Shown here: positions 28,210 to 39,895 of the stretch, in pieces
Layout of the letters: the number at the start of each line of letters is the position of its first letter
How positions within the stretch are numbered: position 1 is the stretch's first letter
Source of the DNA: Chloroflexota bacterium
GTDB lineage: Bacteria; Chloroflexota; Anaerolineae; Ardenticatenales; JAADHH01
Direction of reading: 5' to 3'
Assembly (NCBI GenBank): GCA_013151955.1
Contig: JAADHH010000025.1
Location: 1 to 40,341, forward strand
DNA: 40,341 nt
Position numbers and translations under genes: made by a program
Notes under the pieces: model-generated
The model's database searches: none
What the model saw: the letters and a program-made list of their open reading frames with translations, nothing else
What the model was told of the DNA's origin: nothing

Positions 28210-28238
28210 ATCATAACATACTCGGTGATTTTTCGCAA
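28210..28238 (-). promoter_or_regulatory. Promoter of rpmB
   Basis: On the minus strand, TTGCGA (28233-28238), a 17-bp spacer ending in TGT (extended -10), then TATGAT (28210-28215). The leader is about 95 nt, long enough for regulation, though no known L28 operator is recognised. Confidence 0.5.
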
Positions 28239-28257
28239 ACGAAGAGGATTTGTTCGC

Positions 28258-28647
28258 GTGCTTAAAGAAAAAACAGCTTTGGGGACAATTGTTATTACCC
28301 GTACGGCGGTAGCTTCCTTGTCTGCCCAGGCTGTGTTGGAATGTTACGGGGTGGCGGAGATGGCCCAGCCCGGTCTGCGCGAGCGGGTGATGGAGCGTTT
28401 TCAGCGAGATACCACCCAAAAGGGCATCATTGTTCGTCAATTGGACAGAGCGATTGCCCTGGACCTATACGTGGTTCTGGCGCACGGCGTACGCATCTCC
28501 GAAGTCGCGCAAAATATCGTTGAGAAGGTAAAGTTTTCGGTAGAACGTGCTACAGGCTTCGCCGTTTCGGAGGTGGAAGTTCATGTACAGGGGTTGCAAG
28601 ACAAACAACCAGGCAAGGACGCTGTATGGCAAGGGGGGGCTGAATAG
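28258..28647 (+). CDS. Asp23/Gls24 family envelope stress response protein
   Basis: About 129 aa. A DUF322 / Asp23 domain with the opening LGTIVITRTAVASLSAQAVLECYGVAEM and the central DLYVVLAHGVRISEVAQNI. In Firmicutes (YloU) it is a small membrane-associated protein encoded just before the FakA homologue, the same order as here. The GTG at 28258 has an AAGAGGA SD 9 nt upstream, whereas the earlier GTG at 28225 has none. The stop abuts the fakA region. Confidence 0.88.
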   Translation: MLKEKTALGTIVITRTAVASLSAQAVLECYGVAEMAQPGLRERVMERFQRDTTQKGIIVRQLDRAIALDLYVVLAHGVRISEVAQNIVEKVKFSVERATGFAVSEVEVHVQGLQDKQPGKDAVWQGGAE

Positions 28648-28671
28648 TTGACATCTGAAAAGGAGAATGCC

Positions 28672-30324
28672 TTGCCCGTAACGACAGACGCGGTGACGAA
28701 GGTGAAAGCCCCGCTCAAGGATTGTGACGGCCAACTGCTGAAGCGGATGTTTGAAGCAAGCACCACTTGGCTGGACGCCAACAGCCAGGCCATCAACGCC
28801 CTGAACGTTTTCCCTGTGCCGGACGGAGATACGGGTACGAACATGCTGTTGACCATGCGGTCGGCGATCAAGGAGGTGGCCACCTCCCCGGAACATTCCG
28901 TTGCCCAGATCGCACACGCCGTGGCTCAGGGAGCTTTGATGGGCGCACGTGGAAACTCCGGGGTCATTCTTTCGCAGATTTTGCGCGGCTTTGCTCGTGG
29001 ACTCGATCAAACCGATAAAATGCGCGCCTGCGACTTTGCCAAAGCGTTGCGTCTGGCAGCCGATACAGCGTACCAGGCCGTGATCAAACCTGTGGAGGGC
29101 ACGATCCTGACGGTGATCGAAGACATGGCCCAGGCTGCCCATCGCGTGGCCGACGAGAACGACGACTTGTATAGCGTCTGGGAAGGGGCTGTGGAAGCCG
29201 CCCGGCACTCCGTGGCCCGCACGCCGCAGCTCCTGCCCGTTTTGCGCGATGCCGGTGTGGTGGATGCCGGCGGCCAGGGCCTCTTCGTTGTTTTCGACGG
29301 AGCCTTGCGATTCTTGCGCGGCGAATCGATAGACGCCGCCACCCAGGCCAGCGAGCCGGAGAGCGAAGCGCATTTCCTGGCCAGCGAGAGCTATGGATAT
29401 GACATCCAGTTCCTCCTGCGGGGCAAAGACCTGGACGTGGATGTCGTCCGGGCCAAGATCGACAGCATGGGAGAATCAACCCTGGTTGTTGGGGATAGCA
29501 GCCTGATCAAGGTACACGTTCACGCACCCAACCCGGGACCTGTCATCCAATATGCAGCCGACCTGGGGCCGCTGAGCAAAGTGATCATCGAAAACATGGA
29601 TGAGCAGTATCAAGACTTTATGCTGGGTACGGCGGCAACGCCCAGCCAGAGTGCTGCGCTGGAACTGACCGACATCGCGACGGTAGCCGTTGTACCCGGA
29701 GAGGGATTGCGCCAGGTGTTCGAGAGTTTGGGGGTAACAGCAGTCGTCCCCGGCGGCCAATCCATGAACCCCAGCACAGAAGAATTGCTGCGAGCCATCG
29801 ACGAAGTCTCTTCCGACCAGGTCATTTTGCTCCCCAACAACCGGAATGTCATCCTGGCGGCCAACCAGGCACAATCTCTTTCCCAGAAACAGGTTGCCGT
29901 TGTTCCAACCCAAACCATTCCCCAAGGAATCTGCGCCTTGGTTTCATTCAAATATCAGGCCGACCTGAATGCCAATGCGCAAGCCATGGAACGAGCAATG
30001 GGTGAGATTCAAACCGGGGAGATCACCAAAGCCGTACGGTCCACGCGCGTGGATGGCATGCAGGTGGAAAAGGGCGAATACATGGCCCTGCTCAACGGCA
30101 CACTCGCTGCCGCCGGCGCCAGCATGGAGGGTGTCGTGAATGAAATGTTGCGGCAGTTGGGAGCAGAAGATTACGAACTCCTCACCCTTTACTATGGCGA
30201 CGAGGTCACGGCCAGCGAGGCCGAAGATTTGGCCGGTGTGATCCAGTCGCAGTACCCGGACCAGGAAGTGGAACTGGTAGACGGGGGACAACCTTTGTAC
30301 CCCTACATTATTTCGGTCGAGTGA
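28672..30324 (+). CDS. fakA: Fatty acid kinase subunit FakA (DAK/DhaL-DegV type)
   Basis: About 550 aa. A DhaL-type nucleotide-binding domain comes first (VPDGDTGTN near residues 49-57, GARGNSGVILSQ), then a middle region and a C-terminal domain. It phosphorylates fatty acids bound to FakB (DegV) proteins, feeding exogenous acyl chains into phospholipid synthesis. The TTG at 28672 has AAAGGAG at 6 nt; an earlier TTG at 28648 directly follows the previous stop with only a G-run, so it is less likely. Two degV genes follow, which supports the kinase role. Confidence 0.9.
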   Translation: MPVTTDAVTKVKAPLKDCDGQLLKRMFEASTTWLDANSQAINALNVFPVPDGDTGTNMLLTMRSAIKEVATSPEHSVAQIAHAVAQGALMGARGNSGVILSQILRGFARGLDQTDKMRACDFAKALRLAADTAYQAVIKPVEGTILTVIEDMAQAAHRVADENDDLYSVWEGAVEAARHSVARTPQLLPVLRDAGVVDAGGQGLFVVFDGALRFLRGESIDAATQASEPESEAHFLASESYGYDIQFLLRGKDLDVDVVRAKIDSMGESTLVVGDSSLIKVHVHAPNPGPVIQYAADLGPLSKVIIENMDEQYQDFMLGTAATPSQSAALELTDIATVAVVPGEGLRQVFESLGVTAVVPGGQSMNPSTEELLRAIDEVSSDQVILLPNNRNVILAANQAQSLSQKQVAVVPTQTIPQGICALVSFKYQADLNANAQAMERAMGEIQTGEITKAVRSTRVDGMQVEKGEYMALLNGTLAAAGASMEGVVNEMLRQLGAEDYELLTLYYGDEVTASEAEDLAGVIQSQYPDQEVELVDGGQPLYPYIISVE

Positions 30325-30334
30325 TTTTTCAATT

Positions 30335-30374
30335 AGAAGTTCAACTTCTCCAAGAAGTTGAACTTCTTGGAGAG
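30335..30374. repeat. Dispersed hairpin repeat, family A copy 3, with alternative folding
   Basis: AGAAGTTCAACTTCT (30335-30349) is perfectly inverted at 30353-30367. An overlapping stem (30346-30359 with 30361-30374; one G-U, 1-nt centre) uses the same right arm, so the two hairpins exclude each other. It lies between fakA and the first degV gene. Confidence 0.7.
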
Positions 30375-30436
30375 AGAACTTCTGAGGAACTTATTCTTAA
30401 ACGCTTACTTGGGGATCAGATATCAGGAGCAAGCAG

Positions 30437-31303
30437 ATGGCTCAACAACCTCTTATCGTAACAGATAGTGCAGCCGACCTGCCCCCTGAGGTGGTAGAAG
30501 CACTGGGGATTACGGTCATTCCCCTAAATCTACACCTCAACTCGCAAATCTATCGAGATGGTGTAGATATTTCTTGTGACGACTTGTTTTCTAAGGCGCG
30601 GAATGCACAAGCTATTCCCAGCTTGTCTGCGCCTGCTGTGAAAAAGTTTTATCAAACATACAGCAAACTGGGCCAGCAAGCCGAAGAGATCATCTCCATA
30701 CACCATTCCTCCCGGCTGAGTCTGACCGTGGAACGCGCCCAACAGGCGGCGATCTCCATGGTGGGCCAGTCGCGCGTGATGGTTGTCGACTCTTTGCTAA
30801 CTACTGTGGGATTGGGTATGTTGGTCGTCGCCGCTGCAGAAGCAGCACGTGCCGGCGAAAGTGCGGACAGCATCCTTCGCTTGTTGCGGGATATGATTTC
30901 TCACATTTATCTGGTACTCTTCGTCGAATCTCTGGGCTATCTGGAACGCGACGGTCGCATCCGGGAAGCGCAGTCCATTCTGGGCACGATGCTCAATATC
31001 AAGCCTCTGCTCATCATGGAAGATGGCGAGATTGAACCAATGGAGAAAGTGCGGACACGTTCGCGGGGCTTGGACAAACTGGCCGAGTTCGTTTCCGAGT
31101 TTACGCGCATAGAGCGTCTGGTGATCATCCACAAACAGGGTATTCCCAAGGAGATCCAGGGGGTAATCGAACGGGTGGATGCCGTGAAACCCGGGGTACC
31201 GATAGAAATCGCCAACTATGGTTCCGCACTGGCCACTCACGTGGGAATGGATGCACTGGGCATCGTCATTTACGAAGGACAAACGGGGCCAGAACTCTGG
31301 TAG
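30437..31303 (+). CDS. DegV family protein (FakB-like fatty acid-binding subunit)
   Basis: 288 aa. The N-terminus IVTDSAADLPPEVVEALGITVIPL is typical DegV. The lipid-binding middle includes SIHHSSRLSLT (the usual SGTYQSA-type helix start is altered) and a C-terminal domain with RDGRIREAQSILGTMLNIKPLL. FakB proteins present a bound fatty acid to FakA. SD CAGGAG. It is 112 bp after fakA with a hairpin repeat between, and 9 bp before a second degV. Confidence 0.9.
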   Translation: MAQQPLIVTDSAADLPPEVVEALGITVIPLNLHLNSQIYRDGVDISCDDLFSKARNAQAIPSLSAPAVKKFYQTYSKLGQQAEEIISIHHSSRLSLTVERAQQAAISMVGQSRVMVVDSLLTTVGLGMLVVAAAEAARAGESADSILRLLRDMISHIYLVLFVESLGYLERDGRIREAQSILGTMLNIKPLLIMEDGEIEPMEKVRTRSRGLDKLAEFVSEFTRIERLVIIHKQGIPKEIQGVIERVDAVKPGVPIEIANYGSALATHVGMDALGIVIYEGQTGPELW

Positions 31304-31312
31304 GAAGACGCC

Positions 31313-32179
31313 ATGTCAGGTTTTGTACAAGTCATTGTAGATAGCTCGGCAGACATTCCCCAAGATCACGTCGAGGCATTGGGCATTCATGTGCTACCTT
31401 TGGCGATTCACTTCGGCGAAGAAAGTTTTCTGGAAAGACAGAACATCACATCGGAGCAATTCTACCAACGACTGGAGGCCGAGGCCCCCCGCGTGCCCAA
31501 AACCTCTCACCCCTCACAAGGTGAATTCGAAGTGCTCTATCGCGATGTCTTGGCGCGTGGAGACGAAATCGTTTCGATCCACCTCTCTGACAACTTCAGC
31601 GGTACCTACCAGACAGCTTTGGCAGCAGCCAGGGCCATCGGCGATGATGCCCCCATCACGGTCGTTGACTCGCGCAACGTCTCCATGTGCGTCGGGTGGC
31701 TGGCCATTGTGGCAGCCAGGGCCGTCAAGCAAGGGGCTACGCGTCCGGAGATTGAGACGCTGGTCACCTCGATGATTCCTCGGTTGCGCCTCCCCGCTTT
31801 CCTGGGGACGCTGGACTACATCCGCTATAGCGGGCGCATCGGAAAGGCCTCGGCCTATTTGGGCACATTGTTGAACATCAAACCGATCGTACACGTGGAG
31901 GGGGGCGAGTTGCTCCCTCTGGAAAAAGTCCGTACGCACAGACGGGCACTGAAGAGACTGGTGACGTTGGTGGAACAACAGGCCCCCTTCGAGGAAGTTT
32001 GTGTTGTCCATACCCATTGCCTCGATACCGCCCAAGAAGTCGTGGAGATGATTGCCGGCCTGCACCCACGGGAACACATCCTGATCGCCGAGGCCGGCGT
32101 GGCCATGGGCTGCCACATTGGGCCGGGGGCCGTGGGGGTCGCCCTGTTGCGCCAGCCGGTCGAGGCGCATGAGGGATAA
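31313..32179 (+). CDS. DegV family protein, second paralogue
   Basis: 288 aa with a standard DegV layout: VIVDSSADIPQDHVEALGIH at the N-terminus, SIHLSDNFSGTYQTALAA (canonical loop), and YIRYSGRIGKASAYLGTLLNIKP. Two FakB paralogues beside one FakA suggest binding proteins with different acyl-chain preferences, as in Staphylococcus aureus FakB1 and FakB2. Sequence alone does not say which chain each prefers. SD GGAAG precedes the ATG. Confidence 0.9.
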   Translation: MSGFVQVIVDSSADIPQDHVEALGIHVLPLAIHFGEESFLERQNITSEQFYQRLEAEAPRVPKTSHPSQGEFEVLYRDVLARGDEIVSIHLSDNFSGTYQTALAAARAIGDDAPITVVDSRNVSMCVGWLAIVAARAVKQGATRPEIETLVTSMIPRLRLPAFLGTLDYIRYSGRIGKASAYLGTLLNIKPIVHVEGGELLPLEKVRTHRRALKRLVTLVEQQAPFEEVCVVHTHCLDTAQEVVEMIAGLHPREHILIAEAGVAMGCHIGPGAVGVALLRQPVEAHEG

Positions 32180-34769: not shown

Positions 34770-34912
34770 TGATTGGTGGTGCGCAATCGCTCATGGGGAC
34801 TGTTTTGAAAACAGACGCCCCTCCCCCGCACAGAGAGGGGAGATGTGGTGCATATTGCGTGGCGCGCGTAACCGTTCACGTTGAATGATGTGATAACTGG
34901 AAAGGCGTTGTA

Positions 34913-35302
34913 TTGAAACTGCGTTGGGTTATTCTACTGCTGCTGTTGATCCCGGTAGTCGCTCACCTCGCCTACGCGACGACCCACTCGACGTTCACCG
35001 ATTATTACATCACCGTGGACGAGTTGTTGGCGAGAGGAGATGCCGGCGAAGGAGTGATGGTACGGCTGAGCGGTCCTGTCGTCCCGGGCACGATAAAATT
35101 TGACGGAAAGTCGGCAACGTTCCGCTTCCGGATTCGGGGTGACGGACCGAGCGAAATCGCTGTGGTGTATCAGGGTCGTGTGCCAAACGTTTTCCGTGAC
35201 AACGCGAGGGCGATTGTCGAAGGTACGCTGGACTCGGACGGCATATTCCGCGCGCACACCTTGATGGTACGCTGCCCGCACGAATACGCTGCCGCCGTGT
35301 AG
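34913..35302 (+). CDS. ccmE: CcmE-like cytochrome c maturation haem chaperone, CxxxY variant
   Basis: 129 aa. An N-terminal membrane anchor (5-20) and an OB-fold domain (YYITVDELLARGDAG; AVVYQGRVPNVFRD; AIVEGTLDSDGIFRAHTLM), as in CcmE. The usual haem-attachment HxxxY (KHDEnY) is replaced by Cys121-Pro-His-Glu-Tyr125, i.e. CxxxY. A CxxxY CcmE with working activity is known from some Deltaproteobacteria and Archaea. It is encoded alone: no ccmA, B, C, D, F, G or H in the window. TTG start with GGAAAGG upstream. It lies 2 bp before the next gene. Confidence 0.82.
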   Translation: MKLRWVILLLLLIPVVAHLAYATTHSTFTDYYITVDELLARGDAGEGVMVRLSGPVVPGTIKFDGKSATFRFRIRGDGPSEIAVVYQGRVPNVFRDNARAIVEGTLDSDGIFRAHTLMVRCPHEYAAAV

Positions 35303-35304
35303 CG

Positions 35305-36351
35305 ATGGACAAACCGGTAGAAAACGACCTCGGAAAGAGTGCGGTGTCCATTTCCAAATCGAACGACCGCCGCACCCAGCAGGGCATGACATGGATTGGC
35401 ATCCTGGTCAGTGTGCTATTCCTCTACCTGGCTTTCCGTGGTGTGGACTGGCACACCATGTGGTCTGCACTGCTGGCCGCCGAATATTTCTGGATCTTTC
35501 CGGCCCAACTCTCCCTGCTGGCCGGCTTCCTCGTGATTACCTGGCGGTGGCAGAGATTGCTGCGACCGGCCGGTCGTGTGCCAACGCGGCGCGCGTTCAA
35601 CCTGGTGATGATCAGCTATCTGATCAACTATGTGCTCCCCGGCCGGCTCGGCGAACTGGGTCGCGCCTACCTGGTTGGGCAGGACGGCATCAGCCGCATG
35701 GCCGCTCTGGCGACCGTGGTCCTGGAGAAAGTGTTCGACGGCCTCGTGATCTTGCTGGCCCTGGCCCTCGCCTCGCTGATGTTGCCCTTGCCGGCCTGGG
35801 GACACTGGATCGGTCTGGCCGGCCTGGCTCTGTTCGGCAGCGCCTTCCTGATCACCCTTTTGTGGCTGCGGATGGAAACGCGGGGTATCGCCCTGCTTAC
35901 CCGGCTTGTCACACCCTTTTCCAAACGGCTGGCGGACGACGTGGCCGGTATGGCCCAACGCTTTACCCTCGGTCTGGCCACGCTGCAACAGGGCCAGGAT
36001 ATCTTCGCCATCACCACATTCTCGCTGCTCCATTGGACGACCAATGCGCTGGTCATGGCCTTCACCCTGCGAGCGTTTCGTTTCGACGTGCCCTTCATCG
36101 GGGCCGTCCTGCTCATGGCCGTGCTGGGCCTGGGAACGACCGTGCCCTCTGCCCCCGGTGCTTTGGGAACCTACCAGTGGCTCGCGGTGCAGGTGCTCGG
36201 CCTCTTTGCGGTGGACCCGAGTAGCGCGCTCACGTTTGCCTTCGTGCTCCAATTCAGCCAGACGGTGACCATCGTCCTCGTCGGAGGGCTGGCCATGCTG
36301 TGGGAGGGGACGTCGGTGGGGCGGATTCGACGGTACGCGGAACGATACTGA
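35305..36351 (+). CDS. Flippase-like integral membrane protein (LPG synthase TM region / UPF0104)
   Basis: 348 aa with about eight transmembrane helices after a hydrophilic N-terminus (1-27). The segments LINYVLPGRLGELGRAYLVGQ (near 105-125), VVLEKVFDGLVILLA and VPSAPGALGTYQWLAVQ are typical of the flippase-like UPF0104 family, which includes lipid-linked sugar or phospholipid translocators. The substrate is unknown. It directly follows the CcmE-like gene (2 bp), likely co-transcribed, but the functional link is not evident. Confidence 0.85.
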   Translation: MDKPVENDLGKSAVSISKSNDRRTQQGMTWIGILVSVLFLYLAFRGVDWHTMWSALLAAEYFWIFPAQLSLLAGFLVITWRWQRLLRPAGRVPTRRAFNLVMISYLINYVLPGRLGELGRAYLVGQDGISRMAALATVVLEKVFDGLVILLALALASLMLPLPAWGHWIGLAGLALFGSAFLITLLWLRMETRGIALLTRLVTPFSKRLADDVAGMAQRFTLGLATLQQGQDIFAITTFSLLHWTTNALVMAFTLRAFRFDVPFIGAVLLMAVLGLGTTVPSAPGALGTYQWLAVQVLGLFAVDPSSALTFAFVLQFSQTVTIVLVGGLAMLWEGTSVGRIRRYAERY

Positions 36352-39338: not shown

Positions 39339-39617
39339 TTAAGATCGCTCGACGAAACGACCAGAAACGTATTTGTGAAGAATACTGGCGATTAAGGTTT
39401 GGTATGGCATACCCTCTTCTAGCGCTCTTTTCTGAATTCCTTCCAAATCTTTGGAAGAGACCCTGATGTTCACTCGCCTGTCTTTCTTGAATGTTGCACG
39501 GGCATACCCCCGGTATTTCTCGACTTCTGTCTCAAGCCCTTCCACCGACCTCCACTCTCCCTGTTCATACGAAGTCAGCAAGCTCTTCTCTTCTTCATCC
39601 AGTTTTTCCTGTTCCAT
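39339..39617 (-). CDS. CopG-type antitoxin (BrnA-like)
   Basis: 92 aa. Matches the CopG antitoxin family that partners BrnT-like toxins: EEEKSLLTSYEQGEWRSV at the N-terminus (toxin binding) and a ribbon-helix-helix type end KKDRRVNIRVSSKDLEG..AIKRA-like helix then MPYQTLIASILHKYVSG. Its ATG overlaps the toxin stop (TAATG at 39615-39619), so translation is coupled. Antitoxins of this type usually repress their own promoter; a palindrome sits in the promoter spacer upstream of the toxin. Confidence 0.85.
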   Translation of the reverse strand: MEQEKLDEEEKSLLTSYEQGEWRSVEGLETEVEKYRGYARATFKKDRRVNIRVSSKDLEGIQKRALEEGMPYQTLIASILHKYVSGRFVERS

Positions 39618-39895
39618 TATCTACCACCTCTTAAATACTTCTTGGTTGCTTTACGACTGGGAATAATCGTCTTCAGAAAAATCTCTCGTTCCGTCTCTAC
39701 AAACAGAACGAGATAGGCGTAATCATCAATATTGACGATAAAGATACGTTGTCCTTTGTACTTCTCGGGGTTTGGATGCTCAATAACATCCAGCAGTTGG
39801 CCTTTTTCAATGTAAAAGACAACCTCTTCAAACGATACATCGCGTTCAGCCTGCAATCGTCTGTTTTTTTCGTTGTTCCAGGAGAAGTACCTCAT
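39617..39895 (-). CDS. BrnT-like toxin
   Basis: 92 aa. It starts MRYFSWNNEKNRRLQAERDVSFEEVVFYI, with a beta-rich core (KGQRIFIVNIDDYAYLVLFV) and the end FLKTIIPSRKATKKYL, as in the BrnT/DUF4258-like toxin family (ribonuclease fold, RelE-like). Toxin first, antitoxin second is the usual brnTA order. The ATG lies 7 nt from the -10 box, so the transcript is probably leaderless. Confidence 0.85.
   Translation of the reverse strand: MRYFSWNNEKNRRLQAERDVSFEEVVFYIEKGQLLDVIEHPNPEKYKGQRIFIVNIDDYAYLVLFVETEREIFLKTIIPSRKATKKYLRGGR

Follow-up and report, generated by a model that had tools for sequence, protein, structure and literature searches.

The 40,341-nucleotide stretch of Chloroflexota DNA analysed here (the window) contains a short gene for a CcmE-family protein in which cysteine takes the place of the usual haem-binding histidine. 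An initial annotation of this gene placed the cysteine motif in a minority of Ccm systems lacking some components and suggested an atypical maturation route or a different haem task. The question raised by this locus is what such a CcmE does when no other ccm gene lies nearby.

The window gene encodes a cysteine-type CcmE

The product of the window gene, designated CcmE2 below, matched the Pfam CcmE profile over positions 2-98 of 99 (2.5e-23). The score of 82.7 bits vs a cut-off of 24.6 indicates that the assignment to CcmE is not due to chance. The protein scored 58.6 bits against the NCBIfam CcmE equivalog model, below the cut-off of 126. As the second CcmE of the same genome (CcmE1) also fell below this cut-off (79.1 bits), we conclude that the NCBIfam equivalog cut-offs do not reach these sequences. 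A sequence search of solved structures returned CcmE entries only, with 2kct of Desulfovibrio vulgaris at the top (2.3e-8), and the Cys121 motif aligned with the C-terminal motif of the solved CcmEs. These results confirm the earlier identification of the protein as a CcmE with Cys121 substituted for histidine in CPHEY, as well as its match to the known Cys variant of System I.

AlphaFold, given the family alignment, predicted a single N-terminal helix followed by an OB-like barrel (pLDDT 88). When this model was compared with solved structures, the five top matches were all CcmE (8ce8_E, the best, and 1lm0, 2kct, 1sr3 and 1j6q). The protein is thus predicted to consist of an OB-fold domain and one N-terminal membrane helix, and it carries the haem-attaching His/Cys with Tyr at +4 as C121-P-H-E-Y125. 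Core positions were also retained, including Arg51 (R61 in E. coli), with Phe72 and Tyr86 aligned. A promoter scan gave nothing above chance.

Table 1. Features of the ccmE2 locus in window coordinates
Feature	Position	Strand	Evidence
ccmE2, CcmE-family haem chaperone paralogue, 129 aa, TTG start	34913..35302	+	PF03100, tree clade, model
GGAAAGG, Shine-Dalgarno-like, 7 nt 5' of the ccmE2 TTG	34899..34905	+	read in sequence
N-terminal helix, residues 3-25, presumed membrane anchor	34919..34987	+	model helix 3-25; hydrophobic sequence
His18 within the ccmE2 anchor	34964..34966	+	sequence
C121-P-H-E-Y125, presumed haem-attachment motif; CPHxY is the CcmE2 signature	35273..35287	+	sequence, alignment
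Flippase-like membrane protein (LPG_synthase_TM), start 2 nt past the ccmE2 stop	35305..36351	+	PF03706 8.7e-48

A Cys-type ccm gene set lies on other contigs of the same genome

The window corresponds to contig C71 of an assembly of 3.0 Mb with 86% completeness. Contamination by this contig was not supported, as its tetranucleotide correlation was 0.60-0.83 with contigs of its own genome vs 0.14-0.56 with other genomes. No other ccm genes were found in the window, as originally reported; homologues of CcmE, CcmF/CcmC and CcmH were found on other contigs. Contig C57 carries the gene for CcmE1 (CPSKY), with ccmF, ccmA, ccmB and ccmC downstream in the same orientation; the haem-site motifs are WWTWD in CcmC and WGGYWAWD in CcmF. 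Contig C94 contains ccmH (LFCPLC; CcmH match 1.3e-23) and a gene for a CcmG-like thioredoxin (WCKPC). There was one CcmF_C match in the genome. A third Cytochrom_C_asm match, on contig C152, lies between genes reading as hemA and hemC, and the protein reads as HemX-like by its place.

From the genes on C57 and C94 we conclude that the Ccm system of this genome is not stripped down, contrary to the suggestion that components are lacking. The initial annotation had named a complete HxxxY-type operon elsewhere in the genome as evidence against its proposal. The check, which covered CcmA, B, C, E, F, G and H, detected no such operon but revealed a Cys-type set. Both CcmEs of the genome have Cys instead of His, as in System I*, the Ccm variant with Cys-type CcmE. 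CcmH is present, and its absence is not required for System I* (PMC3601427). A search of the genome for one cytochrome c family yielded 18 matches, several of them in one protein with 8 CxxCH motifs.

Contig C111 of this genome (L167:113-2569) encodes a protein of 819 aa that starts like cytochrome b6f subunit IV and contains 8 CxxCH motifs. Its gene is in a row with those for an apparent Rieske-type protein and what looks like the N-terminal part of a cytochrome b, and together they look like a bc-type complex whose multihaem subunit is a fusion.

Cysteine is the rule in the sampled chloroflexotan CcmEs

Cys was present at the motif position of every one of 108 different CcmEs examined and His in none; these tree sequences were all from Chloroflexota and had been collected by a motif pattern that includes Cys. 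His was also not found at this position in the C-termini of a wider CcmE set. The most frequent motif was CPSKY (41), with CPHxY (16), CPSRY (14), CPSKF (13), CPSRF (10), CPTRY (10), CPTKY (3) and CASKY (1) making up the rest. Chloroflexi were previously named by Stevens et al. among the holders of Cys-type CcmE, most of which have CPSKY, and CcmH occurs in about a third of such bacteria (PMC3601427). Covalent haem binding by Cys-type CcmE has been reported for Desulfovibrio and Methanosarcina (PMC3601427; PMC9084895). As Cys is universal in the sampled Chloroflexota and already published, the cysteine of the window protein is by itself explained, and the minority status first given to the motif does not hold in this phylum. 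Among the sampled Chloroflexota a Cys-type CcmE is what one normally finds, and it can occur in the same genome as CcmH and a CcmG-like protein.

Phe replaced the Tyr of CxxxY (CPSKF/CPSRF) in 23 of the 92 chloroflexotan CcmE1 proteins (loci L104, L107, L109-L111, L113-L114, L116, L118-L123, L125-L132 and L146).

CcmE2 is a separate clade with its own signature

What sets the window protein apart is its clade, for which we coined the name CcmE2 (CPHxY; 16 sequences from 14 genomes). CcmE2 formed one clade in the 108-sequence tree (support 98/92) and appeared as one change in 98% of the bootstrap trees. It comprises the short CcmEs of families f40 and f44 together with two f62 proteins from outside the class. 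In class-wide searches the window protein was 40-48% identical to the f40/f44 proteins vs 35% to CcmE1 of its own genome. Named relatives in the set are Chloroflexota MAGs, several of them labelled Anaerolineae or Anaerolineales.

CPH was found in 16/16 CcmE2 vs 0/92 CcmE1 sequences, the CcmE1 pattern being CP[ST][KR][YF], and CxxxY was invariant within CcmE2. The residue after the motif Tyr is hydrophobic in CcmE2 and mostly Glu, Asp or Gln in CcmE1, and the tail beyond this Tyr is 3-5 residues in 14 of the 16 CcmE2 proteins and 3-33 in CcmE1. A His in the anchor, within the 20 residues preceding Y[YF]xT, occurred in 14/16 CcmE2 vs 2/92 CcmE1; it is present in the window copy (PVxAH-like) and missing from both f62 sequences. 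The window copy grouped with three operon copies of its own class (support 97/76, the latter by SH-aLRT); its branch is long (0.98 changes per column).

Each of six sampled relatives of the window's order had one CcmE. Five genomes (G000, G039, G273, G137 and G236) each had a single CcmE1, a single CcmE2 and a single match to CcmF, indicating that CcmE2 does not have a CcmF of its own. Scanning wider genome contigs with the window CcmE2 alone detected no relative. A scan of the same contigs with the CcmE2 alignment, using a pattern blind to the f62 motif, gave 12 loci, 11 of which were apparently records already in the set; the twelfth was a CPTKY CcmE of SAR202. The open-access literature on CcmE paralogues of bacteria or chloroflexi contained no description of the CPHxY clade. 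CcmE2 thus seems to be a small, distinct and undescribed CcmE subfamily. The initial hint of something atypical holds in another sense, as the protein is a second CcmE of a distinct clade; an atypical maturation route is not needed to account for it.

CcmE2 genes occur in three arrangements

The order F29-CcmE2-CcmE1-CcmF-CcmH was found on one strand in four genomes (G300, G308, G183 and G397), and the same order from CcmE2 onward starts at a contig edge in G409. The ccm runs of G397 and G409 extend on to CcmA-B-C. In the second arrangement, ten f40 copies of CcmE2 have a response regulator gene, a sigma-70 factor gene or both next to them in the same orientation; in nine of these the sigma-70 gene lies downstream. 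Both arrangements occur in G300 and G308. The window copy, adjoining a flippase-like gene, represents the third. A parsimonious reading, which we infer from these arrangements, is that CcmE2 arose as a component of the ccm operon and relocated in some lineages.

In addition to the sigma-70 factor and response regulator, the regulatory locus (L068-L069, L072 and L074-L080) encodes a PAS histidine kinase; a second kinase and a protein with a beta-lactamase fold are often present as well. A small Cys-rich protein with no family match (L076:8228-8536) lies beside several of these CcmE2 copies. F29, located directly before CcmE2 in the ccm operons of two chloroflexotan lineages (L070:648-1229, L071:4856-5428, L073:8764-9387 and L162:9073-9612), is membrane-anchored, about 190 aa long and matches no Pfam or NCBIfam family; its model reached a pLDDT of 65. 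Homologues of F29 were also present in genomes where no CcmE2 was found, in two of these near a CcmE. F29 was rejected as a constant partner of CcmE2, being absent from the window's genome and present where no CcmE2 was found.

Proposed role of CcmE2

The reading that we favour, and consider somewhat better than an even bet, is that CcmE2 is an auxiliary System I* haem chaperone that uses the shared CcmABC and CcmF alongside the housekeeping CcmE1. CcmE2 would be anchored by its N-terminal helix with the OB-fold domain outside the membrane. CcmC would offer haem at its WWD site, CcmABC being shared with CcmE1, and Cys121 would bond the haem while Tyr125, and perhaps also His123 or His18, served as iron ligands. 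From CcmE2 the haem would move on to the single CcmF(H) and so to c-type cytochromes. Two chaperones may be kept because one has a specialised substrate, acts as a relay or serves as a back-up; haem binding, partners and a specialised or back-up role are all inferred here.

CcmE membership and predicted fold, the retained core positions, the position of CcmE2 directly before ccmE1-ccmF-ccmH in several relatives, the grouping of the window copy with them, the lack of a separate CcmF for CcmE2, and the ccm genes and many c-type cytochrome matches in its genome argue for an auxiliary chaperone. Against it, the window ccmE2 is away from other ccm genes, 10 of the 16 known copies are in the regulatory locus, and the SH-aLRT value tying the window copy to the operon copies reaches only 76. 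Function might also have changed, given the anchor His and CPH. E. coli CcmE contacts CcmC through R73, D101 and E105 (PMC6204919); these positions are F63, N92 and D96 in the window protein, mostly W, D and D in the CcmE2 clade, and Y, D and K in CcmE1 of the same genome, which departs from E. coli at two of the three. As both CcmE1 and CcmE2 depart from E. coli, these positions do not separate the two.

The sigma-70 factors and response regulators beside the f40 copies, the additional histidines of the anchor and haem motif, and the lack of a CcmF dedicated to CcmE2 would fit a protein that has no part in cytochrome c assembly but holds or senses haem, and that might, e.g., inform a sigma factor or two-component system about haem supply. 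We consider this unlikely, as the window copy is outside the regulatory locus and groups with operon copies, a neighbourhood shared within one family may be plain synteny, and four genomes have retained CcmE2 within the ccm operon, flanked by F29 and CcmE1. A related and slightly less probable reading is that CcmE2 has a different function as a haem carrier, with CPH and the anchor His supplying further iron ligands for a relay or sensor, e.g. to CcmE1 or the f40 sigma-factor locus, and does not simply duplicate the ordinary chaperone. Equally doubtful is that the window ccmE2 is a redundant or decaying copy without a separate role. CcmE2 is dispensable in the six sampled relatives with one CcmE only, the branch of the window copy is long, and its neighbour is unlike that of any relative; however, its frame is open with a plausible ribosome site, it has retained the motif, fold residues and anchor His at 40-48% identity to its relatives, and CcmE2 recurs with a conserved signature in 14 genomes.

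The spacing of only 2 nt suggests that ccmE2 and the flippase-like gene, which was correctly recognised at the outset, are probably co-transcribed, as would suit a CcmE2 that serves this neighbour by tying haem handling to lipid or cell-wall synthesis. This is very improbable, since the pair was absent among the CcmE2 relatives and flippase homologues examined, and for the same reason the linkage was rejected as a functional clue. The flippase-like protein is one of five homologues in the window's genome. The closest relatives of this protein in six of the order's genomes were 32-36% identical to it, and the CcmEs of these genomes are located elsewhere; no CcmE was beside the flippase homologues at the loci read among relatives of the order.

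Comparison with known systems

CcmE2 shares with the System I* CcmEs of Desulfovibrio, archaea and chloroflexi (PMC3601427; PMC9084895) the Cys for His in C-x-x-x-Y, an OB fold with one N-terminal anchor (predicted for the window protein) and a Cys-type ccm set in its genome. It differs from the published CPSKY majority in having CPHEY, almost no tail and an anchor His, and in being a second CcmE in a genome that encodes CcmH and a CcmG-like protein. The CcmE1 that accompanies it in this genome belongs to the same family and has the same Cys and Tyr, but is in a separate clade, with a longer tail, no anchor His and ccmF-A-B-C next to it. E. coli CcmE (HxxxY) resembles the window protein in predicted fold, with 8ce8_E as the best match, and in motif position, whereas its haem-attaching residue is His130; the His and Cys of CcmE are reported not to be interchangeable (PMC9084895). 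In ANME archaea one Ccm component is likewise duplicated, with specialisation proposed (PMC9012536), although the duplicated component there is CcmF, tied to one cytochrome, and here it is CcmE with no target cytochrome tied to it. A question that System I* still poses is how CcmE forms a stable bond between Cys and haem and how this bond is later broken (PMC3601427). Genomes in which CPSKY and CPHxY CcmEs share one CcmF offer a natural comparison of motif versions with the same partners.

Two further gene groups were observed in the window. Asp23, a FakA-like (DAK2) gene and two tandem DegV genes form a fatty-acid-kinase-like cluster in a row (28225-32179, + strand), and a small gene pair resembling a BrnT toxin and CopG antitoxin, both slightly under the Pfam cut-offs, is located at 39339-39895 on the - strand.
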